This document shows, piece after piece, positions 4,857-63,616 of a stretch of DNA of 64,000 bases. How positions within the stretch are numbered: position 1 is the stretch's first letter; each line of letters begins with the position of its first letter. A model generated the notes under the pieces. That model was not told where the DNA came from. It did not search any database and saw only the letters and a list, made by a program, of their open reading frames with translations. A program made the position numbers and the translations under genes. The DNA is from Aporrectodea caliginosa (taxonomy: Eukaryota > Annelida > Clitellata > Crassiclitellata > Lumbricidae), in the NCBI GenBank assembly GCA_020284085.1, contig JACEVL010000099.1:2268229-2332228 (forward strand). The letters are read 5' to 3'.

Positions 4857-4920
4857 CCCAAAAGACAAATATTAACAGCCAGGTGGAAAAAAGATTTCTG
4901 TACGATACTTTCTTGAACAT
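4857..4920 (-). CDS. Signal-peptide exon of a further two-CTLD receptor (gene 0, rest not in view)
   Basis: ATG at 4920 opens a 21-codon hydrophobic leader (starts MFKKVSYRNLF) ending in phase 1 at a GTAAGT donor. It is the direct paralogue of the first exon of gene 2 at 28598-28661, with the same 64-nt length, phase and surroundings. The lectin exons would lie to the left, beyond the retrotransposon and hAT remnant, so the gene may be disrupted or have a very long first intron. It starts about 1.7 kb downstream of the stop of gene 1. Confidence 0.6.
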
Positions 4921-6653
4921 TTTCTCCTTCATTTACCAATGATTTTCGACGCTGTGTGTGTAGGCAGCTACGTCTATGCACAGTTAACCTAATTGTACGA
5001 TCACATGCAGCGCTGTTGCAATAACTAAACCACGAAACTGTTAGATCCGTGACAGCATGCAGGGCACCCAGCAATGTTACCTGACTCTTATCCATTCAGT
5101 TATTATAAATATTATGATTCATGTCGTATGGTTCGCGACCAGCCTCTTTGCATGAAACCCCGCTACACGACACAGAAACAGGAAGTTGCTATCGTTTGTT
5201 TGTGTATACGGCCTGTTTGATCTCGAGTATTATGCCGATCTTTGTATTGAAACAGACGGAACAAGCCGCTCTTTGAACAATCTATGCTACATGCAGGAAA
5301 ACGTCGAATGAAGCCGACTCTAATTACCTTCCTAGGCTTGTCATGCTGACGCGTCAACAAGTGCATAGTTTCAATTGCAAGTAAAAGGGGTATATGATTT
5401 GCTGTTGTTGATGTTTTAATAAATATTTCAACCAGTCAATCATTCAGTCTATATGTCAATCGGTCAGTCAGTCAAACAGTCAGCCATCTATCTAACCCAG
5501 CCGATCAGTCAATCATTCATTCTTTCTGCGTCGAACACTCTTTACAATTTATTATACTTATCCATTATTAGATACACTTCACTTCAAATCATTTATTGTG
5601 GAGCAACAATGTAGATTGCTCTGCAGAAGTTGCGAGATCATATTTTTTAACCAATCGTTTCAGCTGAAAATTGTAATTAACCTAAAATCGAAAGCTATCA
5701 AAAAATTGTTGTGATGCACCCGATATGAACGGTGCATCAAGAATGTTTTTAAAGAAACTTTTCGATGCATGTTATAATTGCTTGGCATTAAATTATTTAC
5801 TGATGTTTACATGATTATTACGAATGGAAGACACGATGAGTTCATCTGAGTTTTTTACCCTTCCATAATAATTATATCATGTGATTATATCATGTGATAG
5901 TCTATCTAAAATTCTGTAGGCCTACTACTGACATATAAATTACTATGTATCATTGTGAATAAATGAACTTGTATTGGATTGACCTAATGGCTATGAAAAA
6001 TGAAAACACCCAGGTATTCACTGGACTCATTCCCACGATGTTAGGATTCGTCCAATGCGGCTCAAATGAAAAAGAGCAGAAACTGAGACTACATTATGGA
6101 ATATGGATACATTAATTTATTTAACTGAATAATGAAAGATATTATACAATTAAACATGAAAAAATTTTTATAATGATTGTCTGTACGGCTTTGAGAAATG
6201 AATCACAGGCCTACGCAGTAAACAGAGGAAACTCGGAATATATATCACGGGATTCACGGCACATAATATAAGAACTTAGAAGTTATTCAATCGTATTCAA
6301 ACGGTCACAGTTTACATCTCTAAAGAAATGCTTACAATCAATTTTGCGCTTGGATTACAGCATTCTCAATCGATCATCTGCTGGTATCTTAAATAATTAG
6401 TCTTTAATATTCGAGAACTGCACGTTCAGTATAATAATTGACACATTTTATGGCATTAAAATATCAGTCATAATGTTCTGTTTATAACACATTTTCTTCT
6501 TTTATTATTGTTCTATGTAAAATTCGGAGTAATTGGACTAAAACTTTGATGCAGGAGATGCGGTCAAATCATCTTAATACTAAAGTTCTTATATAATTTC
6601 AGAGTAATATCTCCATCGTACTCATAGACTTGTGACATCCCAATGTTTCCAGT
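4921..6653. other. Intergenic region between gene 1 and gene 0, part of a segmental duplication
   Basis: No exon is seen. Blocks at 4921-5560 and 5950-6120 match 28.66-29.35 kb and 29.58-29.72 kb. Both carry runs of CAGT/CAAT-type simple repeat (near 5450-5510 and 29215-29290). It should contain the promoter of gene 0 and the 3' UTR of gene 1. Confidence 0.6.
6501..6506 (-). terminator. Possible poly(A) signal of gene 1
   Basis: AATAAA on the minus strand about 150 nt past the gene 1 stop codon. The position is plausible for 3' end formation, but the region is AT-rich and chance matches are likely. Confidence 0.35.
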
Positions 6654-9600
6654 TTAACCAATAGCATCCGGAGGAACGGCCTCTGCTGGATCACTTACTA
6701 CATCAAGCTCATGAGGATTACTTGTAATAGGCTCTTCCTTGACAACCTTGCTCTTTTCAAATTCCAACGTGGCGTACACAATGGTCGTTTGAGGTTCGTT
6801 TGCAGTGTCTCCAATCTCCTCGTCGTGTACTTTTCGGGTAACTTCTGCATAAAAACCACAGATCTCGTCGGTGTCTTTGCACTCTGCCGCCTGAGTTTGG
6901 TTTCCATCTGACTGTTGATCCTTTTCATCAGTAGCTTTTCTAAAAAATGTTTTTCATCTTTGACTTTAAATGCAAGAATCAGGCCTATATATTCATAATT
7001 ATAGGACATTTGTATAATGTCCCTAAAAGTAAGAGCCACGCCTCGAGTATGGAAGGGCAATGTTATATAAGCATAAAACCTATAGATTTCATATCCACAA
7101 TGCTGTAATTAAACCAGGAAAGATCACCTGCATGCATAGTTTGATCATAGGCAATGGTGATTATCGAATAAAATTTAAGTTAGTTATAAAGATAAACCAA
7201 ACGTAACTATTAACATTTATCGTTGGAGTCGATTTACTCTATCAAATAATTGTCGTCACAAAATCTGCGTTTTTAGATAAAAGTCACAGAACTTACTTTT
7301 TGCATAATTTTCTGCAGCTGAAGATCAAAACGACAATGAAAATGATAAGGCCAACAGTTACTCCTAGAATGATTGCTACCAGACGTTCCGTGGAAAAGCC
7401 TGCATAGAAAACATCAATTCATAGCATACAGTGAACAATAAGCTTACTGAAAGGAATCAAGAACGACACAAACATCAGTCAAATAACATAAAGCTGTAAT
7501 GATATTCTTAGGGCAACTTTAAGTTGAAAAGAACATTGTGTGAATGGGAGAACAGCATCAAATAAGCTTAGCATAAGCATTATTGGATTCATAAATGATA
7601 GTCCAGCTGTAATTTATTGAGATATGGTTCATAGCGTTTTAGTGTGCAAGTTATGTATAAATACAAGTAGTAGGCCTATTACCATGCAAAATTACAGATT
7701 TACTTGTTGAGATGCTCTGATTTTCTCTCTGCGACCAAGTCGATGTGACTGCAATGAAAATCAAGAATTTACTCAGGGATAAAACTACAGACATCAATCA
7801 AATCACATAAAGCAAATACGAATCAGTATCTCACATGGTTTGTTTAAGAGATTAACAATGATTGCTGTAATGATACTAAATAATATAATATCTTTTTTCT
7901 TTAATCAAGCGCCTGACAAACGCATTGCGCTGTACATTTACATGCTATGAAATTGAAACAATCTTAACTACTAACAGAACAGACAGCCTGCAATACACGG
8001 CGCTAATAGCAGCCTACAAAGCATGTCCGCCCAACGGGGGCTCGAACTCGGTACCTCTCGCTCTCAACGCCAGATGTTATCCAATGCGCCATCGCCCCTC
8101 CCCCCCCCCGGGGGAAATTGTAAGTTGAACAGAACATTGTTTATATGGGAGCACAGCACCAAATAGCCTAAGCATGATAGGCTTGATAAATGATAGACCA
8201 GCTGTAGGCCTAATTTATAGAGATACAGTTCATATCGTTTTGGTGTGCAAGTTATTTATAAATACAAGTAGTATTACCATGCAAAATTACAGATTCACTT
8301 GTTGAGGTGCTCTGATTTTCTCTCTTTGACCAAGTCGATGTGGCTGCAATAAAAATCCAGAATTTATACAGGGATAAAACTACAGACATCAATCAAATGA
8401 CGCAAACCAATTACTAATCAGCATCTCATATGGGTCACGATGGATTTTTATATAGAAACAAAATTGACAGTGATAACTGTAGTGATATTCTTACGCAATG
8501 TGTAAGTTGAACATACAGTAGGCCTAACATTGTGCTATTCACTAGTGGGACCATAACATCAAAATAAGAGCTTAAGCATTATAGAGGTGACAACTAACAG
8601 AAAAGTTGTAACTTATAGAGAACATAGTCGTAGCATTTTAGTGTGCAGGTCATGTATAAATACAAGTAGTGTTACCGTGCAAAATTACAGAAGCACTTGT
8701 TGAATTGTCCTGATTTCGTCTCTTGGACAAAGTTGACGTGACTGCAATAAAATTCAGAGTTTAATTGACTTTAACTACGAAAATAATTATAGTTTACTGT
8801 GCATTTCTTTCCTAACTGATGCAATAGTCTCATTCTTAATCACATTTAACATCATATAGGTAAGTGCAGAGAGCGCTTTTGATTTCTGACTTGTACTGTT
8901 TCAAGAACGGTGCTATAGAAATTTTCAATTATCAAATCAAATCAAATCAAATCTCTTTTATTGAAGCCAAATGAAAACACATAACATTTCAACATAAAGT
9001 ATTAGGATTGGCCGCAATTTACAATTGCTTCTACAGTGTACAGGTTGCATTATTCAATAAACAATGTCGATGTCAGCACAATCGAAATGAATAGCTTAGG
9101 TGGGAAATGAATAGCTCAGTGGGACCATAACATCAAAATAATAGCTTAAGCGTTACAGAAGTGACAACTGACAGAAAAAGAAAACTTAGTTCGACAGATG
9201 CACCTTTCACAGGTACGCAGGACATAGGCTAACTGTCATTTATTTCTGAAATCTCGAGATCTATTAGGATATCACTTGAAGAGTCCTTTGATTGCTTATG
9301 ATTCGATGTGACATTAGAAACATTCCAGTTATAGATGTAGCTACAACGATAATAAAGTTAACTTACAAATTCCTGAGTTGTCAGTAGATGTGCTTGATGC
9401 TGTGGACGTTTTCATGGGACTCGCTGTAAGGACAGTCGCAGTTCCTGTGTAAATACGAATGTTTATCTTATTATATAGCTTTATGAACATTCCAGTTATA
9501 GATGTAGCAAAGTGTACAGCAAAATAAATCTAACTTACGAATATTTGATTCCTCAGTTGATTTGCCTGATGTAATGGGCGTTTCCACGGAACTCGCTGTA

Positions 9601-12600
9601 TGGACAGGCACTGTTTCTGTGCAAACATAAAGAAATTCGCATATTTCGTGTTATATTTGTCGGTGGATCTACGGTCGGTTTTGTAGACGGTTCATTTTTG
9701 ATGAAGGGATGTATGCATGCATGTATGTATGTATATATGTATGTAACTATGTATACAAAATGTATTCGGCTATTTAAGCAGCGCCTTTCATCACCTCAGA
9801 TTTGCAGATGGCTCAATCTACTTGACTTAATTCTATAACGCCGAGTCATAATGTCCAACACAGCAGTCGATGGCCGCATCAAACGAAATCCTAATAGTAT
9901 AGCCCCAAGTCGCCGCCATAGCCGCCGAGCCGCCGAATTTTTGTCCAAGCCGCTTAGCCGCCGGAAATTTTACGGCTTAGCCGAAAAACCGCCGAGAATG
10001 TTTTTACGGCTAGCCGCCGGAAACATATTCAGCTAATTCAGCTAGAACACGCACAAAGTTGTGATTGTAAAGTTTTCCTGCTGGTTTCAAAGAGTTATGA
10101 TTTTGTAGATTACCGTACAAGTTCGGACTTATTGAAACTGTACTGTTTCGAATGACTTTTTGTGTGCCACAATTAATTGCTCATTTTTATGGTATTGTAT
10201 CAGATGTCCTAATGTCTAATTAATTGGCTTTTTGGAACTCTATAGTCAATACACGTTTTGAACGAACTATGTTTCAAGCCGTATTTTTTACGGCTAGCCG
10301 AAAAAGGTTTTTTACGTCATTTTACGGCTAGCCGAAAAGCCGCCGTAAATTTTTTCAAGCCATCCGTTAGCCCAAAAAATTGCGGCTTGGCGGTATGCCT
10401 AATAGTCAATGGAGTTCTCGAGAGTAATGAATAAATTACAGTCATGGCCTATAATACGTACCTGTGAATGGTGCATCTGTCGAACTACGATTTCTTTTTT
10501 CTGAAAAGCACAATAATTCAAGAGATGCTTTTATAAGTGTCAGCCATAATACAAACCTGAGCTTTCTGCCTCTTGTTTGATCAAATAAACGAATATACAT
10601 ACATACTAAAATGGTTTAAAAGTATTCGCCATAGTTGCTACAAAATTTCACCAAGGAAAGATTTCTTTATATCGTCTGGGGCAACATAACCGTCCACTTG
10701 TTTTTGTACAAAAATGACCTACCTATCTGACAGATAACGTTTTTCTTCACAGAACATTTATCCCGATTCCACTTTGAACTTTCGTTAATGAACAAACAGT
10801 CATCTCCTGTGTTTCCGTAATCGTTCAGCAAATTGTATTTGATATCGTGCACGTCTAAAACAAGTATCGGAAATGAGATAATGATTAAAGACGCTTAGAA
10901 CTACTTAAAAACTGCGATTCTAATAAAATTTCCAAGAAATTTCCCATTTTATTGGTGCCTTTATAACTGTTTTTTTCGCGTAAACGGTTTTAGTTTGCAC
11001 TGAAATTCGAGCGATCAGAAGACAACTGACAAACCTTGAAGACGTGTGGCAGTATTTATATGTATTGTGTAATATATAATTTAATCTTCAAGAGGTGCGT
11101 TGAAATTCTATGAGTTAAGTTTTAACCCACCTGTTATATTCCAAATCCACCATATTCGATGTAATCCAATCCAGTATTCGTTCTCAGCATCTGCCTGCAA
11201 AGTAGAAACGTCCCGTTTTAGGCGATCGAGATCTCCGTCTTCGCTGAATGTCGCTAGGTCACCTCCACCTTTCAGACATTCGTTTCTCGCCTTGTTCAGA
11301 CTTAGCCTAAAGTTGGTTGTCCAGTTAAGACATCCATCTTTCCACAAAATAGACTTTGGTGACTTAGTTGTGCATCTGACACCTGCAAGTGATTTTGACA
11401 TCATTCAATAAAAACATTTTTTATCTCAGATTTCTGGTAATCCATAATATTCAAAACACTGATTTAAATTAACTGACGCAAAGATCTCGTGACTAATATT
11501 CCAGACTACGCATTATCATATCGGTGGTTATGACCAGATAAAAACTTAACTCATGTTCTTAGCAATGCCATGAATCATAGACCCACCATTAGCATTACAT
11601 TGGAATTAAATTATAATCATGACTGATTCACTCTAATTCTAATAGTAAAATAAGTAGTTCACAAAATCAAGTTTTAAGTTACAAGTGAACCGAACGATGC
11701 AGCTGTATAGCTTACCGGGTAAGATGCAGATATAGTTATATTCATATTTTGGATAACGTGCTTCATATTCCAGTTGTTTGGTTAGAACTGCTTGAGTTTC
11801 ATGAATGCAATTATTACTGTTGCCCGTTTGCTGATGACACTTCGGCTCCTCTACGATAAACGGTACTCAATGAACAAATACAAAGACCTAAATGTATCCT
11901 CTTAGGCCGCAATTAATCATAATCTGAAGATGAGGCAGATTGAGAGGCAATTAGCAAAGATGGTTGTGTGTAAACAACATAATTCTCAAATAGGATTTTA
12001 AGTCACGAGCAGAGTGTAAATCTGTGTAAAATATTAACTGTACGACCTTTTCTTATGATTACCAGTATTTCTTCGCTCTATCGAAACCTGTCTCAGCTAA
12101 TTAAGAACCACTGTTATAAGCTGATGATTTAGGTTTTATTGTGGCTGTCTGAAGGATGTTTTAAACTACGCCACAGGCTATGGCCCAGCTGATGAGTCTG
12201 CTCACAAGACGGATAGCAGCATGGAGGTACGTAAGAAAGTGCTACACTAAAACAACACTGTTGCTCAAATCCCTTTTCCAACAAAACTAGATGGAGTCGA
12301 ATTCAACGTTGGATGGAAGTAGGGTAAATATTGAATAAAAAGTTGAGCCAAGCAAGAGAATGACTGATTTTAACTTTTACACGAAAGAGCGATAAGCAAC
12401 AAATAATGTATGAATAGAGTTCCATAGATTCTAAACCCATACACGTGTAAATTACGTAAAATTATGTAATTACCCGCTTCCTTAACGGTTTGATTATTCA
12501 GCCATCTCCATTTGCGATTGCCAACGTATCGTCCAGCTGTCCACACTGCCTGGACTGAAACATTCTTCGTTAGATAATCTACTAACGCTCTTTGCTCTTT

Positions 12601-14572
12601 CTCAGTTAGAATAACTGGCAAGGTTGCGTCCAGTTCTCTGCATGTCTTCCATGCTTTGTCCCAGTCGATGGAAGAGACGTTTGGCATGAAGTAACAGATG
12701 GTTGTTGATTCAACGTCAAAGCACTCTCTATGACTGTCATGGCAAGCCACGTAGAACGCAAAGCCTCATGAGAAACGGATAAGCAGGTTCATCGTCACAA
12801 CAACATTAAATTTACTTCGTGAATTCATAATTTTTATTGACTTCCGACCCATCCGTTAATTCTGCAGTCTTCCCTTACCTTAGAGCGGATGGGGATCTGT
12901 CTATTCGATGGATTCTGGGTCTATAATATCTAGTGATTACGGGTTCGAACATTTTTGACAACCCTAGAGAAGTTCATTGCACAAGATAATTATATCTCAG
13001 TTTAGTTTCAAAATTACTGAACTAACGCGCGCAATAAATGCAATAAGTAACTTTAGCAACAATTTAGTTCCACATTTGTCACTTCGGTTTCCACGACGGT
13101 TAGCGTCCTGGACAGTACCGGTAAAATGAGTCAATCGAAAGGTTTTGGGCGTAAATTTCGTCCAAGACAGATAATTATTTGATCAAAAAGTCTGCTGCAC
13201 TTGCGCCTTCAAACGAAATAAGGTAAAACTGAATACATTGTTCACTACCCTTTTGGGAGATCAGGCGATGAGGTATAGGACTCGCCACGCGCCCTTACGT
13301 GACGAGGGTATGAAAAAATTACTTATTATATCCTGCTGAGGGCTGCCTCATCTTGCGTCGCGCTTAAAAGTCTGCTGTTCTTTTCACCTTTTACTACTGC
13401 AACTGGATTATTACAGATATAGCAGAGACACAATGCAGAGTTCATGGCCATGATAGTCATAGTTATCATGATTTACTAGAATATAGTGAAACACTCTTGG
13501 AAGGTACTAGAATATCATGAAACACTATGGAAGGTACTAGAATATCATGAAACACTATGGAAGGTACTAGAATATCATGAAACACTATGGAAGGCACTAG
13601 AATATCATGAAACACTATGGAAGGTACTAGAATATCATGAAACACTCTGGAAGGTACTAGAATATCATGAAACACTCTGGAAGGTACTAGAATATCATGA
13701 AACACTCTGGAAGGTACTAGAATATCATGAAACACTATGGAAGGTACTAGAATATCATGAAACACTATGGAAGGTACTAGAATATCATGAAACACTATGG
13801 AAGGTACTAGAATATCATGAAACACTCTGGAAGGTACTAGAATATCATGAAACACTCTGGAAGGTACTAGAATATCATGAAACACTCTGGAAGGTACTAG
13901 AATATCATGAAACACTATGGAAGGTACTAGAATATCATGAAACACTATGGAAGGTACTAGAATATCATGAAACACTATGGAAGGTACTAGAATATCATGA
14001 AACACTATGGAAGGTACTAGAATATCATGAAACACTATGGAAGGTACTAGAATATCATGAAACACTATGGAAGGTACTAGAATATCATGAAACACTCTGG
14101 AAGGTACTAGAATATCATGAAACACTCTGGAAGGTACTAGAATATCATGAAACACTCTGGAAGTGGCGCTTTATAAATGTGCAGTCAAACTGATAATTAC
14201 GCTTACACGACTCTCGTCTATGCAAAGAGTGGTCAATGTTAGTATGAGCTTTTAGCTTGTCTTGGTTCCTGTTAATACATGATTGCAGCTGTTATACGTT
14301 TTTGTACAATAAATTCCAACTCAATAAACTCCTTTGAGCGTCCATAATATTACAATTTTATTGATTGTGCAATGACCTCTGGCTTACAATAAACCTAAAA
14401 GCATAAACTACCAAAAACTAGCCAAGAAGAAGTCCCTCGAAAATACCCTCAGATTTTAACATTTAATCCTCTAATAATCCCTCGAATAAAAATACTCAAA
14501 AAATAAATTGTAATAAAACTCACCAGAAAACACAGCAACTGCAAGTTTCAAAGAAGAGCTTATCGAGCACAT
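6654..14572 (-). CDS. Gene 1: type I receptor, two CTLDs, mucin-like stalk, TM, ITIM tail
   Basis: Thirteen exons join in frame to about 525 residues: signal peptide 14524-14572; CTLD-A 12474-12764 and 11716-11850; CTLD-B 11131-11382 and 10723-10854; stalk 10462-10500, 9539-9616, 9367-9444, 8697-8741, 8299-8343, 7704-7748; TM 7297-7399; tail 6654-6939. CTLD-A has paired Cys and VWTAGR in place of WIGL; CTLD-B has the canonical WIGL and WNITG. No EPN/QPD plus WND sugar-calcium site is visible. The stalk is rich in Ser/Thr with N-glycosylation sequons. The tail has GFYAEV (Tyr about 461) and the ITIM TIVYATL (Tyr about 486), known in this motif class to recruit SH2 phosphatases. Intron 1 holds the 30-bp minisatellite. 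The 8697 exon has a weak donor (GTGCTT). Exon edges are inferred from splice signals and paralogue comparison. Likely an inhibitory cell-surface receptor; the ligand is unknown. Confidence 0.8.
7704..8741 (-). repeat. Triplicated 45-nt stalk exon with flanking intron
   Basis: Exons at 7704-7748, 8299-8343 and 8697-8741 are homologous, all 45 nt and phase 1, encoding a TSTWS...N...STS module. Flanking intron sequence is duplicated too, including a GTATTACC...AAAATTACAG stretch beside each. Further copies occur in gene 3 (32741-32782) and gene 4 (39042-39086). Repeated duplication lengthens the stalk by 15 residues per copy. Confidence 0.8.
7935..8120 (-). mobile_element. tRNA-derived SINE, family B (copy 1)
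   Basis: On the minus strand, from about 8118 downward, there is an A-box-like TGGCGCATTGG and a B-box GAGTTCGAGCC, followed by a body ending near 7940. The same body is found in plus orientation at 44.70-44.98 kb. The tRNA-like head plus a repeated unrelated body identifies a SINE, not a tRNA gene. It lies in the intron between stalk exons of gene 1. Confidence 0.75.
8936..8958. repeat. (AAATC)n microsatellite after a LINE-like 3' tail
   Basis: A short run of AAATC units follows GGTGCTATAGAAATT, the 3'-tail motif seen at many LINE/SINE ends in this window. It is probably the tail of a truncated element. Confidence 0.6.
9188..9216 (+). repeat. Inverted partial copy of a gene 1 stalk exon with its donor site
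   Basis: The plus strand here reads TTCGACAGATGCACC, then a Thr-coding end and GTACG. The same string occurs on the minus strand as the real stalk exon at 10462-10500. The match extends upstream through the A-rich start of the exon. It is a small inverted duplication 1.2 kb away, in antisense orientation to gene 1. Confidence 0.7.
9890..10406. mobile_element. Foldback/MITE-like element with 9-bp target duplication (GCCGCC-rich)
   Basis: CCTAATAGT occurs at 9890-9898 and 10398-10406, flanking a 499-bp insert. The ends are imperfect inverted repeats (ATAGCCCCAAGTCGC against ATACCGCCAAGCCGC), and subterminal GCCGCC/GGCTAGCCG words recur in both halves. A 9-bp duplication is typical of Mutator-like elements. 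No transposase is encoded. It lies in the intron between stalk exons of gene 1. Confidence 0.7.
13475..14163. repeat. 30-bp minisatellite, about 22-23 units
   Basis: A tandem unit of exactly 30 bp (AAGGTACTAGAATATCATGA followed by AACACTATGG) is repeated with almost no variation except one A/C site and one T/C change. Because 30 is a multiple of three and the unit lacks stops in several frames, both strands show long artificial ORFs. It lies in intron 1 of gene 1. The right end abuts GGCGCTTTATAAATG, a LINE-type 3' tail. Confidence 0.97.
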
Positions 14573-18504: not shown

Positions 18505-18531
18505 GTCGTCGTCGCAAGTAACAAAGAATAA

Positions 18532-24539: not shown

Positions 24540-27500
24540 CTACAGATCTTCATAGAGCGGTTCTTCATAGTATTGGACATTTCGTCCCAGTTGCGTTGGT
24601 TTTAAGTCCGCGTAGAAGCCATTGTCTACCACTTCTGATCTGTGTAGAACCTCGTAGCTTTTGTCAATATCTGTTTCCACGTCAGCTTTCATCCTGGCTT
24701 TTCTGAAGCAAAAAGAAAACAGTTGTAAAAAAGAACTTTTCAGAAATGGGAACATGTTTACCGAAGAACAAATCCGATTTTTCTTCCTCTTTCTCTCTTT
24801 CGTAGCACCATTTTATACACCACCCACAGTTGCCATACGAGTTTCATCTCTTCCGACCTATATATTTCAATCTGAAATGGAACCATATCTACCAACCGTA
24901 ATCGTAATCCAAATCGTAAAATGCAAATTTATAAGGCGCTACCCAAAAGCTAAGCGCAGATTCACGAGCGCTGCGTCAAGTCAGAGAGGTTGTCCAGAAA
25001 GCAATGTCCAGCGGGGATCCGAGTTCGATTGCCTGAGAGATCAGAGAAAGAGAAGGCAGAGAGATTAGGCAGATCACCCACAGATTTTAGTTGAATTAGG
25101 TGGTTCGAGCCAATTTGTATCTATCGTCTCTGTACAAATTCTGTTACTTAATAAAATCGCCAGAAGTAGCACTGAAACTTGTAAGCCTTATGCGAACGGA
25201 ACCAATATTTGAGATACCTACCGTTTATTTCTCCCAATGATGATGATCGCCGATATAAGGAAGAAGAGGAGGAGCACACTGCCAACGACGACTCCGATAA
25301 GAATGCCGGTGAATGCTAAAACACATTTAGTATGTCTGAAGATACTATAGACTCAGAACGTTTGCTTCTATTGACTTTAGCATCATCAAGCTAGCGTATG
25401 TCGGTCCTTTATGGTGTAGAAAAAGGCGCTACGTTAATTTCTAGATAGTAGCCTACAAAAAAACTAACAGCAGAATGACACATGACACACGAATGGGAGT
25501 TAAAAATTTAGCAATATAGCTTTTGTTAAACCAGTTAAATACTATCTGGTGTAGACAAGCTCTAAGTTCACATTTATTTTACATGGTCTGTGTCAATACT
25601 AATCGCGATGGAAATAAACTTCAAAACTCACCAAAAACCGGGTTATTTTTTCCTGTCGTCGGTTGAGTGAATTCTGTAATCAGAAGCCAAGAAATCTTTT
25701 AGTAACATAGGCCTAAGGTTCCTGTTTTGCAGTGGAAGAAGCCACAAAGAACGAGCTCAGGTTATAAAAAGACTAGAGATTTCTCTAGAAGTCGTATCGG
25801 ATGAATTACACATCACATATATGCCATAGTTTACCCATATGCAACTGGGAACATCTATAGATTAGACTGGCTAGGATTTATGAGGTTGGACTAGATTAGA
25901 TTAAACAGACTGAATTTCATTTGAATAGATTTTAATCACGTCACGTTTTACTGCCAATAGCACATCCAAACATCTTTTCTCGTAATACAAAGCTACCCTG
26001 AAATCCGTTCATTCTGATGAATGCCGTTGATAATTCTCAACGCCAGTCAAAGCCTTAACATAACGGTTAAAAGTGGAAAAATCTTTCTCAATGACTATAG
26101 AACGTACATTTTTAATTCACTGGAGTATAGATAGACTATTTTAATTGATTCAATAGAAGGATATTGTAACTGTTGCATAGATTGTAAGGCCTACCTGTTT
26201 GACAGACGAATCTCTTTTTATCACTGCATGAGGTTAATTGTAACCGGTAACCAGGTACCAGCAAAAGCAAACAACCGTGTTCTGCCCTGTCGTTGGAATC
26301 CAACAAATTGTATTTGATGTCTTCTATTGTGTCTGAAATAAATTCAAATTTAAAAAGCACAAAACAAGTTATGACATCTTTTCCAAGTCCATAGGTGTTT
26401 GAACACTTTCTTTAGAGGGTTGCCAAATCAGCATTAGGTCATCGTGATAAAAATCATGATATTTTACCATAAAATTCATGATAGTTTACCGTACCCTACC
26501 CTGACAAACCTAACCCCATTTTCCTTACCTACTATTAGAATGAAATGTCATTATACTACTTTGGTTGCAGTTGGTTTACCTGATGCATTCCAAATCAATA
26601 AGTTTCGTCGCAAGCCAATCCAGTAATTTTTTCTCCTGTTGAGTCGATCTGAGACAAGTTGAAGGTCTCCATCTTCGGTGAATGTCGCCAAATCACCTCC
26701 GCCTTCGAGGCATGCGTGTCTTGCCCCATTATAATTCAGGTTTGTGCTACTTAATACTAGACAGTCACCTTTCCTGGAAAACGAATTGTTGCCGTTGCAA
26801 TGGACACCTACAAAGAAATATTTAGCTGAATGTAATTGCGAAAGTTTTATTCTTTAGGCCTATTGTTTATGGTTTTGTTTTCAAAACTGCATAAGAGCAG
26901 CGACGTCAGCACAGAACTCTGGAATTAATAGTGGAACTGTATTGCCTCAAGTGGCTCAGGAGATATTTAAGCTCATCTTAAGATGCACCTCCTTAGTCAA
27001 TGTGTCAGCGCCTTTATAAGTTTCCTCAAAGGGGCAATACTTAGTGCTCAGATACGTGCATGCTTTGCATGCAGGTATATCTGAGACACTGAGACTGGTT
27101 TAGCATTAATTATAGTTACAGCTAACCGGAGAGCTGGCAGATGTAGTCATTTGATTCCGTCGAAGAACGAGCCTCATATTTCAATTCGCTGTTTAAAATT
27201 GCATTGATTCCTCTTCTTTTAAAAAGGCTGATATTTTGGAGCAGTCCTAAAAGACAACAATATCAGAAAGCAATAAGAAGTTTTCAAAATAATAAACAAC
27301 TATGCCAAACCACAATACTCTTAACATTAACACATCATTAACAGAATGAAACATTTTCTCATCAACTGTTCGTCATTTCTGTTCTTTTATTCATTATTTT
27401 GATCAAAAAAATTAATATCTTGAAATCTCATATGACATGAATTATATAAGATGAATGCATGACTAGTACATTCGCATAAGGCAAAGCATAGTAGATACCT

Positions 27501-28661
27501 TCGTTTCTCAGTGGCTGACCGTTGATCCATCTCCACTGGTTGTCAGCAATGTATCTTCCAGCTGTCCATACGCACGAATTAGACACATTTTGGCGCAGAT
27601 AGTTCTTGAGCAATGTCTGAATGTAGGCGCTTGAAATGACCGGTAGAGAGGCATTCAAATTCCTACAGGTGTTCCAGGCTGATTCCCAATCCGTGCGAGA
27701 GTCATTTACCATGAAGTAACAGACGTTTCTCTGGTCGACACTGAAGCATTTCCAGTGGTATCTTTCCTGACAAATGCTTTGAAGAATCAATTCTAAAATT
27801 CAGATTCCAAATCCTGGATACAGTGTGATCCAATGACAACTATGCGAAGTCCACACGCTTGAAATTACATTGACGAGCTAATCTGACTGGTTATGGAAAT
27901 CGCTATAGAAATGCCCAGATGCATGCATACGATAATATCTAGTAACTACACTCTTGATATTACATTGATGAGATTTTGAGAGGTTATGAAAATAGCTTTA
28001 AAATGCCCAGATGCATACATAATATAAGGTAAATAAGTCACAGTGTGAATCTTTGAATTTATCGGACTGAAATTCTGTTTTGAAGAGTTGTCGATTGATG
28101 CCTGAAGCACTGTATAATGACGTTATAGAAGTACTAAGGTTAGAGTTCATTAAATGGGCAGAATCCATATTCAATGTCCAGGGTTGAGGAATTCGACTCA
28201 TTCGAGGAAGTCCTTTCCATCAACACTGTTTATTCTCAATACAAAAACCAAAAATCTTGTATTTATTACTAAATGTATTACACCAATCTTCTGCTAAGCC
28301 CCTTTTGAAACACTGGGCATGATTCAATACCCGGCATTAAATAACGTTCTAATCATATGTATCTATCCTTCCTTGTCGCACACCATCAGCGTTTAAGAAC
28401 GACTCTGTTCCAACGCAATTTTGTGTCGTCTGCTCTGAACGATCCTCTCCATAATTTCATCATGAAAGGCCTAGTATTATTATATTATATTTGTCGGTTA
28501 AATGTAGAACGAGATGATCATTAGTCCAACTTCAACATTTTATTAAAATTTACAACGATAGACATAATGAAAACAATCAAAGTACTTTTGAACTTACCAC
28601 CAAAGATAAATATCAACAGCCAGACCGAAAACAGATTTGTATAGGATGCTTTCATGAACAT
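24540..28661 (-). CDS. Gene 2: type I receptor, two CTLDs, short stalk, TM, YxxL-rich (ITAM-like) tail
   Basis: Eight exons join to about 380 residues: signal peptide 28598-28661; CTLD-A 27499-27792 and 27127-27246; CTLD-B 26580-26807 and 26195-26332; stalk 25632-25673; TM 25222-25315; tail 24540-24702. It is compact, without transposon-filled introns. CTLD-A again has VWTAGR, here preceded by an extra Cys, while the Cys usually found early in its second exon are absent. CTLD-B has WIGL and WNASG. The tail has KSYEVL, GFYADL, QYYEEP and PLYEDL. The first two give YxxL-x10-YxxL, close to the ITAM pattern (YxxI/L-x6-12-YxxI/L), and there is no I/V-x-Y-x-x-L ITIM. The TM helix has no charged residue, so any activating signal would be carried in cis. 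Likely an activating or mixed-function partner of the ITIM members; this is inference from motifs only. Confidence 0.8.
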
Positions 28662-34715: not shown

Positions 34716-34940
34716 AAGCCGTAGCATACATAATTATAGACTACTGTATTTTAAACCATTAACACGCATGCATTTCTGAAACTGTATTAATATATCAGAT
34801 ATACAAAGGAATATAAAATATTGTGAAATAACTGACAATTCAAAGCGCGTATGATAGGCCCTAGTACGAATCAACAGTTCAAACTTACCAACAAATAGTG
34901 CAATTAGAATTCTAATAATAAAATCTCGATTTGTTGGCAT

Positions 34941-35913: not shown

Positions 35914-36002
<89 letters not shown>

Positions 36003-40300: not shown

Positions 40301-43300
40301 ACTCTGAGAATAAATTATATGTCAGAGGATTGGAATAGCACCAGCAGTACATTATTTAGACATAATTACTAATGGTTTAAAATTAATTCAGATATAGTCT
40401 TATATAGACATGCATCGCGTCAGACCAATAAGTCTCAGAGGTCTGCTCTTACTAAAGAAATGCCAACAACTTTAGCCTGCTTTCTTGCTGCTCTCGTATT
40501 GATTATACCAACTCGGTTTTCGCAGATATCTCAGACCTTGAACACAGCAGGCTTCAACTAACCTTATATAATCTATTGACTTCTATAGCGACGTTGAAGA
40601 GCGTTGAAATATCTGTCTATGTTCAGCCTTCGTACCAACAAGTGTTGTTTTCGATCACAGGATGCTATGATTTATGTTGTGCCTATTATCAAGGCGGCTT
40701 AGGGTCTCGGTGGATGGTCCTAAGACTCTGGAATTTGGTGACCAGTTCTGTTTGTTCTATCAGTTGTCGTCGTGATATCGTTACAGTTCGAACTTGATTA
40801 TCTGATACATCAGAATTCCACCTCTTTTCTTCAACAAGTACTGATCCTTGTTTATTAAATCACTTGAAGTGATCATCGATTGTTGCCTTATGTAACTGTG
40901 CTATATAAGTCATGAGCTTAGATTGGCTGTGTAAAATATTTACATCTTTTAACAAGGTTAAGCTATAGCTGCAACGACAGAGGCTTCCTTCAACGAAATA
41001 TAGGTAATTTGATGTAGCTCAAAATGCGATTACAGTCTTTAATAAAAAGTACAAAATTCACCGTTTTTATATACCTGTTATATTCCAAATCCACAAAAAC
41101 CGGCTCAATCCTATCCAGTATGAATCGTTGATAAGAAGTTTCATATGGTGAGATTTGAAAACCGTGAGATCCTCATCGTCTTCAAAAGTGGCCAGGTCCC
41201 CTCCAGCATCCAAACATTTTCCTCTTGCATCGGAAAAATTCAATCTACGGTCGTTGTATACCACAATGCAGCCACTTCCAAAATGATTGACATCGCGTTT
41301 GGACTGGCAATTTGTATTACCTACAATTATTATAATAATGGACATAATTCGCAGATGTTAATTCAGATGCTTATTGGTACGAAATACCAGCTACCATTGG
41401 CATACTTTTAGTTGCAGATCTATCCACGGAAAATCGTGCGAACTGTATTCATAGACGCCGCTGCTACTCTTGGTCACTCTTTCCTTCTGACGGGCCTGCT
41501 GTAGCTCTGCCTTTACCGAAGATCTGAAGCTACAGTTTCAGTTTATCCTTAAAATCGTCCCTCTAGTTGCTGCCATTTCTCGTTTTTTCGAGCTACATTA
41601 TGTGACTCATACTGCACTGTCTTCTGTTTACGGATATTATTATTTTCAAGATTCTCCTCAAGGTGTGGGCATAAATAGTCATTGCGGCTAGGGAATACAT
41701 CATGGAGCTCCTGTCTCGTGCCACCCAGGTCAGTGATCGTTGCGTACTGCATCATCGAGGTTCACATCACATGAGTTCTACTTGCTAACCGGTATCATAT
41801 GGAAATTTGCTCTTGATCAATCAACTTTTATATTTAAAAAATCCAAAAGCACCCAGCAATTACAGTTGGCTTCCGGAGTAACTCAGGTCCTCAGAATTAC
41901 GGGTTTTGGAGCGTAAAAATTAACTCTGGTCTCATTGCTCGGAAGAACTCTGTAATTATACAGCCTTTCATGGAATCGTTCAGTCACAAGTGATGTTGCT
42001 CAGCAAAAGTATGCAGTATATAAACACTTGATACGGTAAGAAATCGATGCATTTAATAATAACTGACCACGATACTGGCAAATGCAGTGGTGCTCCTCAC
42101 GAGCAGATGCTGATGTATAGTTTAGTTCCTTCGTAAGAACTGCGTAATTTGTACTTCCGTTTTCTGCAAAACGAGCTGCAAAATCATCATTACAAGGCCA
42201 CCAACAGAATAATACCTGAAAACCGTCATAGAGATTGCAGACTATCAAAAGTTGTGCAATAGCATGCGGTATACAATATTTTTTGACGTATAATTATTAT
42301 CACTGCGCGCATCCATTATAAGATCCTCTTTCTAGTCTCCAAGGAGCAGCTGAGCAGTGCCCCAAAGTATCTTTCTGACCATATGCGAAAGCCGTCATAT
42401 GCAACCTCATCTCGTTCCTTGCGCTCTGCTGATTGGCTTGATCTTTTTGTTCCTAGGACTAGGACTGCCTTGGCTCAACGCCGGGCATTTGCTGTGGATG
42501 ATCCCTCTACTTGGAATGACCTCCGCCCCTCACTAAAGGCTAAACTAATGACTGGTTTTTCCAATTTGGTCTCTCGTTCTTTAAAGACGTTTCTTTCCCC
42601 CGGGGTTTTCGTGCTGAGAGCGCCTCTGAATAGTCATTCTGAGGAGGCGCTTTATAAATCTATAGATACGATACGATACGATCTATTCTATTCTATTCTA
42701 TCACTGTACAACCTAATCAGAGGCGCTTCCAGTGCGAAGGGCCCCTCGAAATAAGAAAAGTCTTAAGAGAACGAGGAGAAACAGTAGTGCCCTCACATAA
42801 CATCACAGCTCGAGTTATAGCCGGAAGGTAATTCCAAAACAAAGGACCAACCGAGGCATAGGCAAGATGTTGTGCTGTGGCAGTCCGAGACCGAGGAACT
42901 AGAAGGTCATGATGGTGTAAAGAGCAGGGAGGACGTCCAGAGGTAGCTGAGATAGGTCGTCTGATAAGATCACAGAGGTAGATGGGAGCTTGACCCAAAA
43001 ACGTTTTACACGTAAGGAAGAGAATTTTAAACTGAATCCGAGCAGTTAAAGGAAGCCAATGAAGGTCTTCAGTCATTAAAGTCTAAATATGGGAGAAACG
43101 AGGAAGGCAGGCGAACAAACGAGCAGCAGCAATAAGTACTGATTGGAGTGGAGTCAGACGGAGTTTTGGTACGCCAATAAGTAACGAGTTACAGTAGTCA
43201 ATGCGTGAACAGATCAAGGCATGAATCATGGAAGAAAATATCGGCGAGGGGACAGATCGTCGAATGGCACGTAGACGCCGCAAATGATCAAAACTGGACC

Positions 43301-46300
43301 GAGAGAGATTAGAGACATGTGCAGAGAAAGAAAGAGTACTGTCAAGAGTAACACCCAGGTCACGGACATTTGTCGAAAAAGTAAACTGAGGGAACTTCTT
43401 GGCAAGCAAATCGTAATCAAGTTTAATTAGCTGCTGACGAGTGCCAAGCCAGATCAATTGAGTCTTGGAAGATTTGAGCGAAAGACGATTAGAGGACATC
43501 CAACAATTGAGATCAGCAGAAAGAGATACAATAGATCGGGAAAAAGCAAGCTGGTGAAAAGAGGAGCTATGAACAAAGGCCTGGACATCATCAGCATAGA
43601 GGTAACCAGAGGCCGAATGTTTAGCAATGAGAAGAGGGATATCAGCTGTAATCATGATATAAAGAAGTGGACCCCGCACAGATCCTTGATGGACTCCAAA
43701 ATCAGCAGGTACTCATGAGGTGCGAGAGTCTCCTAGAATAACCATTTGTGTACGATCAGTAAGATAGGAGCGAAACCAAAGAAGAGGAAGGCCACTAAGA
43801 CCAAAGGAAATTTCAAGGCGATGTAACAGAATATCATGGTCTACCATATCAAAATGCTGAAGATGCATCATAAAGAGAAGTAACATGGGAAAACGTCGTT
43901 CAAGACAGCGGGTTGGACGACGCAGTTGATGACACTCGCGGTCGAACCAAACGGCAAGCGGTCGAACACGAATCTTGACACCACGGAGTGGAATCATATT
44001 GTCCAGAAGATTACTGATCGTAGAGGAGTAGAGATGTAGAGTTGTGAAGTTGACTGAAAGTCAGGTTGCGAAGTAGATGAGAAGAGAGGAGAATTTCTCA
44101 AAGCCTCACTGAAGGCGCCGCGGTCGAGAGACTTCCATCCACGAAGATACCGGAGAGCATGAATGGGTTGTGGATGAAGAGGAGGGATAGAGAATTCAAT
44201 AGGAGAGTGATCGGAGAGCGTCGGCGGGAGGATTCTTAAATCTTGTAACGTAGCGTCTTCAGGAGTGATGACAAGGTCAAGAGTACCGCCCTTAAGGTGT
44301 GTAGAGCCAGAGACATGCTGACGAAGGCCGAATTGTGTTAGAAGATCCAAATATCGGCTCGAAGGAGGTATAGAAGGGTCTACGAAGTGTAGGTTAAAAT
44401 CACCGATGATTAACAGTTGACTATTGTGAGTGATGAGACTCGCTAATACCGAAGAGAACTCATCGAAGAAACTGTCAGAGAGTGCAGCAGTTAACAATGT
44501 TAACGAGCCTCGAGGGGTCGCAATACTGATACAAACGAACGAAGTAATTTCCATATCGAGAACAATCCGGGAGAAACGAAGCGTAGAGCGAAGGTAAATG
44601 ACGATGCCGCCACCACGAGCAGGTTGTCCATCAAGAAGGGCAGGTCTTGGACGGTCGCAGAAGGAGTAGCCAGGCGGAGCAGCACGACAAATCAGTACAG
44701 GGGGCCCGATATCGCATTGGATAACATACTGGCATAGAGAGCGAGAGGTAGGCTACCGAGTTCTAGTCCCGTAGGGCGGACATGCTTTGTAGGCTGCTAT
44801 TAGCGCCGTGTATTGCAGGCTGTCTGTTCTGTTAGTAGTTAAGATTTATATCTTCTGTCATTTGTGTTCTTGTGAATTGTTTCAATTGCATAATTGTACA
44901 CTGTAACCGGTTGCGGTTTGTCAAACGGATTGTTTCAATAAACGAAATTATTATTATTATTATTATATTAAATCTTCAGATTATTATTATTATTATTATA
45001 TTAAATCTTCAGATCCACGGTGTCAACTTTCGGTGACAGCGAAGATGTCAAGTTGACGCTCGAGAAGAGTGTGACCGATAAAACCAAATTTATCGGAAAG
45101 GGATCGTGTATCCAGTAATCTGCCCGAAAACCAGAGGGTCAGCTGAAGGGCATTTTGAAAAGTAAACGGTGCCAAACGCACTGACGTGTGGACACGACGA
45201 ACGCGACACACTATCTAGATATCTGTTCCATCACTATTGAATATTTATATGGTCTCAATGACTGAAGATAAGAAAATAGGCGGCACCATGCTTATTACCA
45301 GGAATAGCGTATGGAGGCTGGAATCCGCACCCTCCAACACAATAGAGCGCTCGCTCTTCGGCCTCGTATAATTATAGCAATAGCATGCCTAGCGGAGTGA
45401 TTTGAATAATTGAACGTGAAAAATCAACGAGTGCTTCACTGTTTGAATGCTTCAATTAAGTTGGTGTTTTGTTGCTTGGCGAACATTTGTCATGCCTCTG
45501 TATAGATTTTCTGAGCAGCACAGAAGTTCGAGAGATTTCCAATGTAGATCTTTCAACTTAAGAGAAGGCACTGTTGCTACTACGTTGAAAGAAGCGTTCA
45601 ATTAAAATTACTAAAATAAATAAACACGTTAAATAAAATAACTTGAAAAATACTCAGTTTACCTTGATTACCAAACAGTTTTCCATTAAACCACCACCAG
45701 TTGTTTGTGTGAAATTGTCTTCCTGCTAGCCAGATCCGAGGAAGTGACGAGTTCTTCTCTTTCAGATAGTCATCAAGTGTTTTCTGAATTCTTTTGTTTT
45801 CAATTATAGGCAACGTAGAATTATTTTTCTTGCAAGCCTGTGAAGCATTTTTCCAAGTTATTCCCGTTCTTGTTCGGTCGGTTTGAAAATAACAGATAAC
45901 TTTACCATCGACTTCATAGCAACGTTCTTCGTTTCCGTTGCAACATTCCAAAATGGCAATCGCTTTGAAAGTTTCAATAACAAAGAATGTAAAGAGTTTA
46001 AGAGTTTATATTACACACACGAGTAAACAGACACAAAACTTCTTTGACTCCGTTTATTCCAAGAGAAAATTATGTAAAGTGGGAACTACTGGTCGAAATT
46101 CATAGCTGTAGTTTCACAGTGTTTCTAAGAACTCAGCATCAGACACAAAATTGCAGAATGAATGCTTAATAAGCTATAAGTCGGTGACATTCAGCTTAAT
46201 ACTTTAACGAGAGTGTACTAAAAGCGACTGGGAGACCAATGCAGCTTGTCGTTAAAGCGGCAAATCATTAGTTTGTTCAGACTACCTAAGGAAAAGTTTA

Positions 46301-47224
46301 ATACTAGAGAGGCAGCTAATGAGACAAGTGTTAATATGCCGAGCTGGAATTTACTCTATTAATACTGGATATCATTGAGAGATATCATTCAAAGGTCCAG
46401 AGAATATGCTTTTGGGAAGATTACAGTTCGTATCTTAAATTCTTAATTCCGAGCTCGTTACTGTAAAGCCAAGCGCAGGGCACCGGCTTATTCATGAGTG
46501 CTACGTTGTGTCACAGAGGTTGTTCAGAGATCGATGTCCTGTTTTAATCATCTTCGTTTATTAATTCAAACTGACACGAACGCAGTATGATTACAATTTA
46601 TAGTATGAACAGATTATCACAAGTTATTACAGAAGTCGAGTTTAACTGTTTGGCAGCCATGCAAGGCGCTCATCACATCCTATAGTGCTCGTTTTACCCA
46701 CGCCGTCTCGCGAATGAAAGGCTGAGTCAACCTTTCGGGGATTGCGGGAAGCGATCCAGCGTCCGTGCTTATCTTCTACTTTTCGTGTCAGAGTGTTGCC
46801 ATTACCCTAAACCCATTGTTGCTAGAGCGAACAGAAAGAGGGGGCAGAGCAGCAGCCAAGGCGGGTTTAATTGAAAACGAGAAAGCTTGGAAGTCGTCCG
46901 ATATGAGACCGACACCGCAATGGTTGCATTGAATTTTGAAAATATTATGAAACTGACCAGTTTTCTTGCTTAATAGAATTCATGCGATTGCTCATAATAT
47001 CTCATTATTCTGGGATAAATACTATTGTCAATCACTATTCCGCACACACGATGACAGAGCACGAAAATTGTAAACCAACAACGCTTTAACTGTACTAGTT
47101 ACTTTTCGGATATAGTAGAAGCCATAGGCCTATTATTGCGAAGTAACCGCCAATTCAACTAACGAAAAAAAAACTTTAACAGTTTATACTTACCAACAAA
47201 CAGTAAAGTTAGAATTCTAGTCAT
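37367..47224 (-). CDS. Gene 4: type I receptor, two CTLDs, no stalk, TM, ITIM tail with third Tyr motif
   Basis: Seven exons join to about 441 residues: signal peptide 47194-47224; CTLD-A 45663-45962 and 42068-42241; CTLD-B 41075-41320 and 40166-40303; TM 38071-38170; tail 37367-37703. CTLD-A is divergent (IWLAGR). CTLD-B has WIGL and WNITG. Two stalk exon copies exist (near 39397-39450 and 39042-39086), but one has lost its acceptor and the other its donor GT; skipping both keeps the frame. The leader is short because the upstream ATG of its paralogues is changed. The tail has GLYAEV (about Tyr363), the ITIM SIVYATL (about Tyr388) and NIYSEI (about Tyr434). The last is reached because a position that is TAA in genes 1 and 3 is TCA here. 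The CTLD-A intron carries LINE copies and a SINE. Likely inhibitory. Confidence 0.75.
42330..42716 (+). mobile_element. LINE ORF2 C-terminal fragment and 3' tail
   Basis: An open stretch (42383-42754) has the end motifs RSLRSADWLDLFVPRTRT, a TWNDLRPSLK block and LVSRSLKTFL, typical of CR1/L2-like ORF2. It is followed by a stem-like AGCGCCTCTGAATAG...GGAGGCGCTTTATAAAT tail and short GATAC/TATTC repeats. It lies head-on against the minus-strand LINE to its right, inside an intron of gene 4. Confidence 0.75.
42717..45222 (-). mobile_element. LINE with endonuclease and RT segments, broken, SINE inserted
   Basis: Reading leftward: an endonuclease N-terminal segment at 45023-45211 (LLDTRSLSDKF), more endonuclease at 43994-44685 (GDFN near 44396; LDLVIT and SDHSPIEF further on), an RT piece with DMVDHDILLHRL at 43713-43997, YADD-containing RT at 43083-43679 and the C terminus at 42717-43076. 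Domains match the copy at 52.7-54.5 kb. Frameshifts, stops and a deletion in the RT make it inactive. A SINE interrupts it near 44.7-45.0 kb. Same orientation as gene 4. Confidence 0.85.
44699..45015 (+). mobile_element. tRNA-derived SINE, family B (copy 2), inserted in the LINE
   Basis: Head with A-box ATCGCATTGGATAAC and B-box GAGTTCTAGTCCC, body matching 7935-8120 in reverse, then a tail ending in (ATT)n. ATTAAATCTTCAG occurs twice at the tail end, a possible target duplication or tail repeat. It gives the order of events: gene 4, then LINE, then SINE. Confidence 0.75.
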
Positions 47225-49228: not shown

Positions 49229-62264
<13,036 letters not shown>

Positions 62265-62480: not shown

Positions 62481-62574
62481 TTGTATATCCCACCCTGATG
62501 TACTAATTATGTGCACATGTCTAGAGACGGACAGACACACGACAGACACACCAACAAACATATATTGTATTTGA

Positions 62575-62776: not shown

Positions 62777-62779
62777 AGT

Positions 62780-63224: not shown

Positions 63225-63400
63225 CCATCAATCCAGCTTCCATTTCATCAAAAAATTACCAAAATTCTATTTAAGCAAAAAATATTTGTCATCAATGGAA
63301 CTTTTATTTAAGGAAAGAACTATTCTCATAGATCCAGCTTCTACTTACGGAAACAATTTTTGTCATCAATTCAGCTTCCATTTTAAATTGACCATAAAAA
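63225..63400. repeat. Degenerate CATCAATCCAGCTTCCATTT minisatellite
   Basis: Four to five units of about 36-40 bp of TCATCAATCCAGCTTCCATT type, strongly diverged. The same unit forms cores of the foldback elements at 31.9 and 58.6 kb, so this is probably a fragment of such an element. Confidence 0.55.
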
Positions 63401-63567
63401 ATAATTTACCAACTTATACTACGGGGTTATACCCTGCATAAAATATTTTAAATGGGGCCTACATATAAAAATCTCATATTTGGAATCAACGACGTTGAGA
63501 AGTAGCCTATGCCTAACCAACAAGTCCTGTAGTACGGGGTTAGTAAATATTGACAACTGAGACTTAC

Positions 63568-63616
63568 CAGCAAACAAGAGAATTATAATTCCATTGAAAT
63601 CTCGATTTGCTGGCAT
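63568..63616 (-). CDS. Signal-peptide exon, type III leader (gene 6, or alternative first exon of gene 5)
   Basis: ATG at 63616, leader MPANRDFNG plus a hydrophobic stretch, ending phase 1 at GTAAGTC. It is the paralogue of the first exons of gene 3 and gene 4. No lectin exon lies between it and the gene 5 leader at 62264, so it either splices into the gene 5 CTLD-A exon (the phase fits) or is a remnant. Confidence 0.6.

Follow-up and report, generated by a model that had tools for sequence, protein, structure and literature searches.

The question raised by this locus is whether an annelid genome holds a tandem family of signalling receptors built on two C-type lectin-like domains (CTLDs) per chain, and how the members of such a family come to differ. 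The locus lies in a stretch of 64,000 nucleotides from Aporrectodea caliginosa (Annelida, Lumbricidae; assembly GCA_020284085.1, contig JACEVL010000099.1, positions 2,268,229 to 2,332,228), hereafter the window. On its minus strand we observed four predicted receptor genes (g1, g2, g4 and g5), in each of which two intact CTLDs are followed by a transmembrane (TM) helix and by a tail that contains tyrosines, accompanied by a fifth locus devoid of CTLDs (g3) and a lone leader exon (g0). All parts being on the minus strand, the first gene of the cluster stands at high coordinates, and the interval opens with the ATG of g5 (63616) and closes with the final nucleotide of the lone leader exon (4857). 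Judging from sequence, the cluster probably encodes a family of inhibitory type I dual-CTLD receptors with one activating-like member, g2; we give this reading a probability of roughly 0.6.

We drew up the gene models manually, reading the DNA in three frames, and then assembled them. The full order of exons is leader, CTLD-B exons 1 and 2 (B1, B2), CTLD-A exons 1 and 2 (A1, A2), one or more stalk exons (types S1 and S2), TM and tail. Phase 1 is seen at the end of leader exons, CTLD and stalk exons have lengths divisible by 3 and phase 1-1, and the TM-to-tail intron is in phase 2 in five of five loci, in agreement with the shared phases proposed in the initial annotation. The models of g1, g2, g4 and g5 have no internal stop and GT-AG borders throughout; spliced as predicted, they would give 444 (g5), 443 (g4), 366 (g2) and, without a leader, 517 (g1) amino acids. 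Leader, both CTLDs, TM and tail occur together only in three of the five loci (g2, g4 and g5), and the stalk exons number five in g1 and one in g4, none being found in g2 and g5. The initial annotation had described five receptor loci with a common leader-CTLD-CTLD-stalk-TM-tail layout, plus two lone leader exons. The layout stands, apart from the stalk, in g2, g4 and g5, but g1 lacks the leader and g3 the CTLDs; four loci have two CTLDs, TM and tail, the fifth being a deletion relic, and only one of the leader exons (g0) is truly alone.

When single exons were used as tblastn queries against the window (n = 26, E 1e-3), each of the four B1 and each of the four A1 exons recovered the other three (E 1e-36 to 3e-10), as did each of the four tails with an immunoreceptor tyrosine-based inhibition motif (ITIM; E 1e-33 to 1e-7). 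None of the 26 queries gave a plus-strand match, which bears out the single-strand arrangement noted earlier. No match to their counterparts was obtained at this threshold for B2 of g2 and g4, A2 of g4, TM of g2 and g5 and the g2 tail; these exons are supported by position, open frame and phase and, for B2 and A2, also by the joint alignment. Hidden Markov models (HMMs) of the exon types reported, at E < 1e-3, four sites each of B1, B2, A1 and A2, five of TM and five of tail, a result which, as the models were built from those very sites, shows only that further sites did not turn up. Pfam placed Lectin_C in two stretches of each of the four spliced models (E 4e-14 to 3e-18); all remaining families stayed below their cut-offs, the nearest miss being Glycophorin_A (29.9 vs. 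30.1 bits) over the stalk and TM of g1. With TM and tail at the C-terminal end of the models, the type I, two-CTLD architecture first suggested is supported.

In the joint alignment, CTLD-A has WIGL and five cysteines invariant in four of four genes. Both CTLD profiles matched solved CTLDs across most of their length, and by this comparison the ectodomains are assigned to the C-type lectin-like domain superfamily. In the whole-chain ranking against solved structures, multi-CTLD chains came on top (an IgY receptor, LY75 and PLA2R), with scores that sum over their repeats. When only single-CTLD chains were considered, the nearest to CTLD-B were KLRB1A (E 4e-8) and CD69 (3e-7), DC-SIGN being similar, and the nearest to CTLD-A were snake-venom CTLDs (E 3e-8) and one domain of mannose receptor 2 (3e-7); neither CTLD is assignable to a vertebrate group from sequence alone. 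EPN, QPD, WND and four variants are absent from all 16 CTLD exons, and for this reason a protein ligand seems likelier than a sugar. Nonsynonymous divergence of the CTLDs (Ka 0.36-0.68) was well below synonymous divergence (Ks 1.2 to saturated) in all six pairs, which argues for coding constraint. The stalk is variable, Thr/Ser-rich and absent in two genes.

The tails of g1, g3, g4 and g5 contain YAE[V/I] followed, 24-25 residues on, by I-x-Y-A-[T/A]-L. The ITIM pattern [I/V/L/S]xYxx[I/V/L] is therefore present in four of the five tails, and the g2 tail is rich in YxxL, as the initial annotation had it, with three such sites (YEVL, YADL and YEDL). The first two sites of g2 form YxxL-x10-YxxL (P 0.02 in shuffled tails), which fits the immunoreceptor tyrosine-based activation motif (ITAM) only in its wide spacer, YxxI/L-x6-8(12)-YxxI/L. 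That the g2 tail is a mutated ITIM tail was considered and rejected, as it gave no tblastn match to the others and is aligned with them only in the joint alignment. The blocks YAEV and EPQTxIxYAxLEF change less than the remaining tail in six of six pairs (Fisher P 0.01 to 2e-5), with the reservation that the blocks were picked after the alignment was seen and that the pairs are not independent. The g4 tail has an extra YSEI near its end. The g5 tail terminates in TIYANM (49229-49249), found in no other tail model; this hexapeptide fits the YxN and YxxM patterns bound by Src homology 2 (SH2) domains. By eye, none of the five hydrophobic segments has a charged residue inside, and so a DAP12-type partner with a charged TM is not suggested; in g1 and g3, an Arg is located at the outer edge of the segment.

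If the cluster works as this reading proposes, the CTLD pair would bind a protein ligand and a Src-type kinase would phosphorylate the tail tyrosines. A spacing of 24-25 residues suits tandem-SH2 binding. By analogy with known ITIM receptors (PMC1193534), the four ITIM tails should, once phosphorylated, recruit SH2 phosphatases, and the two phosphotyrosines might engage a tandem-SH2 phosphatase of the SHP type, or SHIP, so that signalling would be damped. The YxxL tail of g2 might instead recruit a Syk-type kinase directly and give positive signalling on its own. In function such a family would resemble the natural killer lectins of vertebrates or the FcoR proteins of Botryllus, without being part of either group.

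Ectodomain and tail have different histories, a finding new in this analysis. In quartets of the four CTLD-bearing loci (g3 left out; simple p-distances, 1000 bootstraps), the CTLDs (241 gap-free codons) separated g1 and g5 from g2 and g4 in 1000 of 1000 replicates, for amino acids and nucleotides alike. The same grouping was obtained from CTLD-B alone (986 and 989) and from CTLD-A alone (972 and 1000). The TM-tail region (72 codons), by contrast, joined g1 to g4 in 1000/1000. Nucleotide distances in CTLDs and TM-tail were 0.50 and 0.20 between g1 and g4, as compared to 0.33 and 0.51 between g1 and g5. At the DNA level, similarity between g1 and g4 extends over the 3' flank, tail, intron and TM (6340-7499 vs. 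37122-38272, 68%) and is also present around the stalk exons, up to a last, weak match of 48 bp at about 9741-9788. The alignment of g1 with g5 covers the CTLD exons, including a single block of 765 columns that spans B2 to A1 (60%), and 264 bp of the leader intron. This intron stretch (14453-14716 vs. 62148-62402, 76%) is more alike than the CTLD coding DNA (67%), and may be a regulatory element or an old repeat. These comparisons suggest that g1 is a hybrid, or has undergone conversion, with a g5-like ectodomain and a g4-like tail; the switch should be located within g1, in the intron that separates A2 from the first stalk exon. Such exchanged halves are explained by gene conversion or by unequal crossing-over among neighbouring genes, two processes not distinguishable here. 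A second duplicated block relates the DNA from the g3 tail to the g2 leader with that from the g1 tail to the g0 leader. Exchange in the intron between CTLDs and stalk would diversify the family, since a given inhibitory tail would come to carry different ectodomains.

Some loci are incomplete. In g3, the DNA follows g4 over the last part of the leader intron and the first part of B1 (32813-33047 vs. 45870-46119, 64%), and after the broken B1 start it jumps directly to the stalk intron and exon (83% to S2 of g4): the CTLDs were lost by internal deletion. The reading frame stays open across the remaining exons until a stop past the ITIM, and a CTLD-free product is possible, a relic being likelier. 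We rejected a natural CTLD-free receptor, because the broken B1 start indicates deletion. In g1, no convincing leader exon was found between the first CTLD exon and g2 by donor-plus-hydrophobicity scans and HMM; the sole candidate, ending at 13415, was discarded as poor and unlike the other leaders. Upstream of the first CTLD exon of g1 there is a retrotransposon of about 6 kb (14834-20848) bounded by long terminal repeats (LTRs; 14834-15979 and 19703-20848, 1146 bp, 99.8% identical) and flanked on both sides by the 5-bp repeat TAGGC; it is a very recent insertion. Since the adjoining 14453-14716 matches part of the g5 leader intron, this element probably sits in the first intron of g1. Gag- and pol-like frames are visible by eye inside it. 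Use of the S1 stalk exon in g4 was also rejected, no acceptor giving an open phase-1 frame. Below the lone leader g0, a gag-like frame of 444 amino acids (1599-2933) shows, by eye, a CCHC-like knuckle, and gene 0 may have been displaced by a transposon.

Ectodomains of the Hydractinia alr proteins are immunoglobulin (Ig)-like and those of CEACAMs consist of Ig domains; group V natural killer (NK) receptors have one CTLD, and the mannose receptor family has ricin-type and fibronectin type II domains. Among the nearest known systems is the fester co-receptor (FcoR) multigene family at the fuhc locus of Botryllus schlosseri, clustered type I TM proteins with ITIM, hemITAM or lone YxxI/L/V tails, where alternative splicing affects mainly the exons between TM and ectodomain (PMC12065747; citations throughout refer to excerpts of the papers). 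ITIM/ITAM motifs are also reported for the candidate allorecognition receptors Hydractinia alr (PMC12065747), and therefore clustered invertebrate receptors with such tails are not new per se. Our cluster is like FcoR in being type I and clustered, with ITIM or YxxI/L/V tails, but the FcoR ectodomain is made of Ig and sushi domains, whereas each of our four models has a pair of CTLDs and, at E 1, lacks any Pfam match to Ig or sushi; Hydractinia alr are likewise not CTLD proteins. Vertebrate NK-complex lectin-like receptors (group V) share the tandem clustering of ITIM-bearing and activating members, and include NKG2F, which has an ITIM-like site and no CTLD and is comparable to g3 (PMC1193534); group V has lost sugar binding (PMC514892). 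Group V proteins are, however, type II (PMC1193534), whereas the three models with leader and CTLDs have an N-terminal leader and a C-terminal TM and Tyr tail, and each of the four CTLD-bearing loci has two CTLDs.

Members of the mannose receptor family (group VI) have 8 or more CTLDs (PMC514892), unlike our four models, with two CTLDs and no other family above cut-off. A tandem CTLD pair as here, but no TM domain, is described in insects (immulectins) and nematodes (C. elegans D1) and predicted in fish (Fugu F1); CTLD proteins of type I are known from vertebrates (PMC514892). In ascidians, CTLD proteins resembling CD94 occur (those of Botryllus are type II), the Ciona transcripts include some that encode proteins with ITIMs and ITAMs, and Halocynthia has a membrane protein that carries two ITAMs (PMC5465252). 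In amphioxus, the sites DDYATV and HDYSEV of BbLcLRR are read as ITIMs, inhibit in Jurkat cells and bind SHIP1 and, less, SHP1/2 (PMC8211107); these YATV/YSEV-type sites are akin to those of our tails, but the ectodomain is made of leucine-rich repeats, not CTLDs. Between CEACAM1 and neighbouring ITAM-bearing CEACAMs, recombination and gene conversion, with exchange of the tail-coding region, have already been named as a mechanism (PMC2832619); there conversion keeps the ligand-binding ends of the pairs alike and the tails differ, whereas in g1 and g4 the inhibitory tail halves are alike and the ectodomains differ. A tandem cluster combining type I topology, two CTLDs and ITIM or YxxL tails was not described in the titles and abstract starts among the literature matches listed, which is limited evidence, and no type I dual-CTLD ITIM group appears in the excerpt of the Fugu CTLD classification (PMC514892), in line with the earlier remark that no named family with this exact architecture was known.

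Searches of a protein database gave no match to g5 at E 0.01 among 1734 candidates, nor to the alignment of the four proteins at E 10 among the 7998 candidates listed. These negatives are weak, because the candidates were 0.55-1.75x the query length and unspliced animal DNA would be represented there by single exons only. Relatives of the repeats in this genome are present in the database, since the reverse transcriptase of a long interspersed nuclear element (LINE) in the window gave 3244 matches among 6693 candidates, the best of the 120 listed having 80% identity along the full query. No relative was obtained with CTLD-B and the g1 tail against viral contigs, nor with CTLD-A in a single scan of genome contigs, as expected of non-animal collections.

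Several observations weigh against a family of inhibitory and activating receptors. CTLD-B is divergent, WIGL being absent and the inner cysteine pair missing in g2 and g4, though seemingly present in g1 and g5. In shuffled ITIM tails an ITIM arises by chance in 4-20% (P 0.04-0.20), so that a single motif per tail is within chance and the evidence for the ITIM is its conservation. Tail Ka/Ks among g1, g3 and g4 is 0.24/0.31, 0.31/0.31 and 0.16/0.16 (ratio 0.78-1.0), and with values near 1 any constraint on these tails is, at most, confined to the motifs. At the YAE[V/I] site the -2 residue is G or N, not I/V/L/S/T; YAEV may still count as an ITIM, because the BbLcLRR sites also do without the classic -2 residue and yet are inhibitory. 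The classic ITAM spacer is 6-8, exceeded by the spacer of 10 in g2. As to the exchange, the B2-A1 intron alone gave no g1-g5 match, and the intron support for the g5-like half of g1 is thus the single 264-bp stretch. Finally, the leader is missing in g1 and the ectodomain in g3, and one stalk exon of g4 is dead, from which it follows that part of the cluster is decaying.

The last point could be extended to the whole cluster, as a set of mostly pseudogenes disrupted by transposon insertions. The losses just listed, the lone leader g0 and the LTR element upstream of the first CTLD exon of g1 are what such decay would leave, but g1, g2, g4 and g5 are stop-free over 366-517 amino acids with intact splice dinucleotides, and Ka of the CTLDs is well below Ks in all six pairs; we hold general decay to be quite improbable. 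YxxL/V is, moreover, also an AP-2 endocytosis signal, a further point against the signalling reading, and the proteins might be endocytic or scavenger lectin receptors whose YxxL/V/I sites act as AP-2 sorting signals, with ligand uptake like that of the mannose-receptor family. Each tail has two or three such sites, and LY75 and other multi-CTLD chains head the whole-chain ranking, though their scores add over many CTLDs. We consider this unlikely, given that conservation extends past YxxL/V/I to EPQTxI before the Tyr and EF after it, that the distance of 24-25 residues is kept in four of four ITIM tails, that the best single stretches for CTLD-B are single-CTLD NK-type chains (KLRB1A, CD69), and that there are only two CTLDs and no further domain above cut-off. 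The receptor layout might also be an artefact of joining separate genes, e.g., secreted two-CTLD lectins beside unrelated membrane proteins. In g5, a gap of 7.1 kb with repeats separates CTLD-A from TM, and dual-CTLD proteins without TM are known (PMC514892); since order, strand and phases are the same in four loci and in g2 only 0.9 kb lies between the last CTLD exon and the TM exon, such an artefact is very improbable.

If the cluster encodes inhibitory dual-CTLD receptors with an activating-like member, a further step may be proposed tentatively, and with distinctly less confidence: that it is an invertebrate lectin-based NK- or allorecognition-like locus of self/non-self recognition, where recombination within a single intron attaches new two-CTLD ectodomains to a common inhibitory tail. 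The repertoire would then be modular and built on type I dual-CTLD receptors, not on Ig domains or type II lectins. Of the invertebrate ITIM/ITAM receptor clusters considered here, Hydractinia alr and, in the excerpt cited above, Botryllus FcoR have Ig-type ectodomains, and the vertebrate lectin NK receptors are described as type II; a dual-CTLD family of type I, whose tails follow this logic and whose neighbouring members exchange ectodomain and tail, could represent an independent solution to the same problem. The cluster offers a concrete test of how new receptors arise while the inhibitory output is kept. The coordinates of all features are given in Table 1.

Table 1. Predicted exons and remnants of the receptor cluster (window positions), with the basis or character of each.
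Feature	Position	Strand	Basis or remarks
g5 leader exon	63568..63616	-	ATG at 63616; open; ends G|GTAAGT, phase 1
g5 CTLD-B exon 1	61264..61554	-	open frame, phase, tblastn
g5 CTLD-B exon 2	60736..60861	-	tblastn match to g1
g5 CTLD-A exon 1	60161..60409	-	open frame, phase, tblastn
g5 CTLD-A exon 2	57619..57753	-	tblastn match to g1, g2
g5 TM exon	50414..50525	-	placed by hydrophobicity, frame, phase
g5 tail exon	49229..49601	-	YAEI, ILYAAL (ITIM), C-terminal YANM
g4 leader exon	47194..47224	-	DNA match to g5 leader region
g4 CTLD-B exon 1	45663..45962	-	open frame, phase, tblastn
g4 CTLD-B exon 2	42068..42175	-	GTCAGT donor; placed by frame and alignment
g4 CTLD-A exon 1	41075..41320	-	open frame, phase, tblastn
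g4 CTLD-A exon 2	40166..40303	-	placed by frame and alignment
g4 S1-type stalk exon remnant	39390..39465	-	no acceptor for open phase-1 frame (by eye)
g4 S2 stalk exon	39021..39086	-	Thr/Ser-rich
g4 TM exon	38065..38170	-	tblastn
g4 tail exon	37367..37703	-	YAEV, IVYATL (ITIM), YSEI
g3 leader exon	34889..34940	-	leader scan / HMM
g3 remnant: end of g4-type leader-B1 intron and first part of B1, then stalk intron	32813..33047	-	CTLDs deleted
g3 S2 stalk exon	32717..32782	-	HMM / frame
g3 TM exon	30880..30988	-	tblastn
g3 tail exon	30072..30312	-	YAEV, IMYATL (ITIM); stop shortly after
g2 leader exon	28598..28661	-	open frame, phase
g2 CTLD-B exon 1	27499..27792	-	open frame, phase, tblastn
g2 CTLD-B exon 2	27127..27246	-	placed by frame and alignment
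g2 CTLD-A exon 1	26580..26807	-	open frame, phase, tblastn
g2 CTLD-A exon 2	26195..26332	-	tblastn
g2 TM exon	25222..25315	-	assigned from hydrophobicity, frame and phase; stalk exon not found
g2 tail exon	24540..24702	-	YEVL-x10-YADL and YEDL
g1 CTLD-B exon 1	12474..12764	-	weak acceptor CATGAG; tblastn
g1 CTLD-B exon 2	11716..11850	-	tblastn
g1 CTLD-A exon 1	11131..11382	-	tblastn
g1 CTLD-A exon 2	10723..10854	-	tblastn
g1 A2-S1 intron interval expected to hold the ectodomain/tail switch	9789..10701	-	lower limit = weak 48-bp g4 match
g1 two S1 stalk exons	9539-9616, 9367-9444	-	frame
g1 three S2 stalk exons	8676-8741, 8278-8343, 7683-7748	-	frame, DNA matches
g1 TM exon	7297..7399	-	tblastn
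g1 tail exon	6654..6939	-	YAEV, IVYATL (ITIM)
g0 lone leader exon	4857..4932	-	relative of g2 leader, inside 1.5-kb repeated block

The window as a whole has a GC content of 35-45% (4-kb steps), is intron-rich, contains many animal-type LINE and LTR elements (types assigned by eye) and gave no Rfam match at gathering score. A LINE reverse-transcriptase region is present in two copies (42698-43890 and 52762-53959, 90% identical), as is a short repeat (50094-50318 and 62560-62777, 90% identical). A minisatellite at 13474-14163 consists of 23 copies of a 30-bp unit (98% matches) and has one open frame on each strand.

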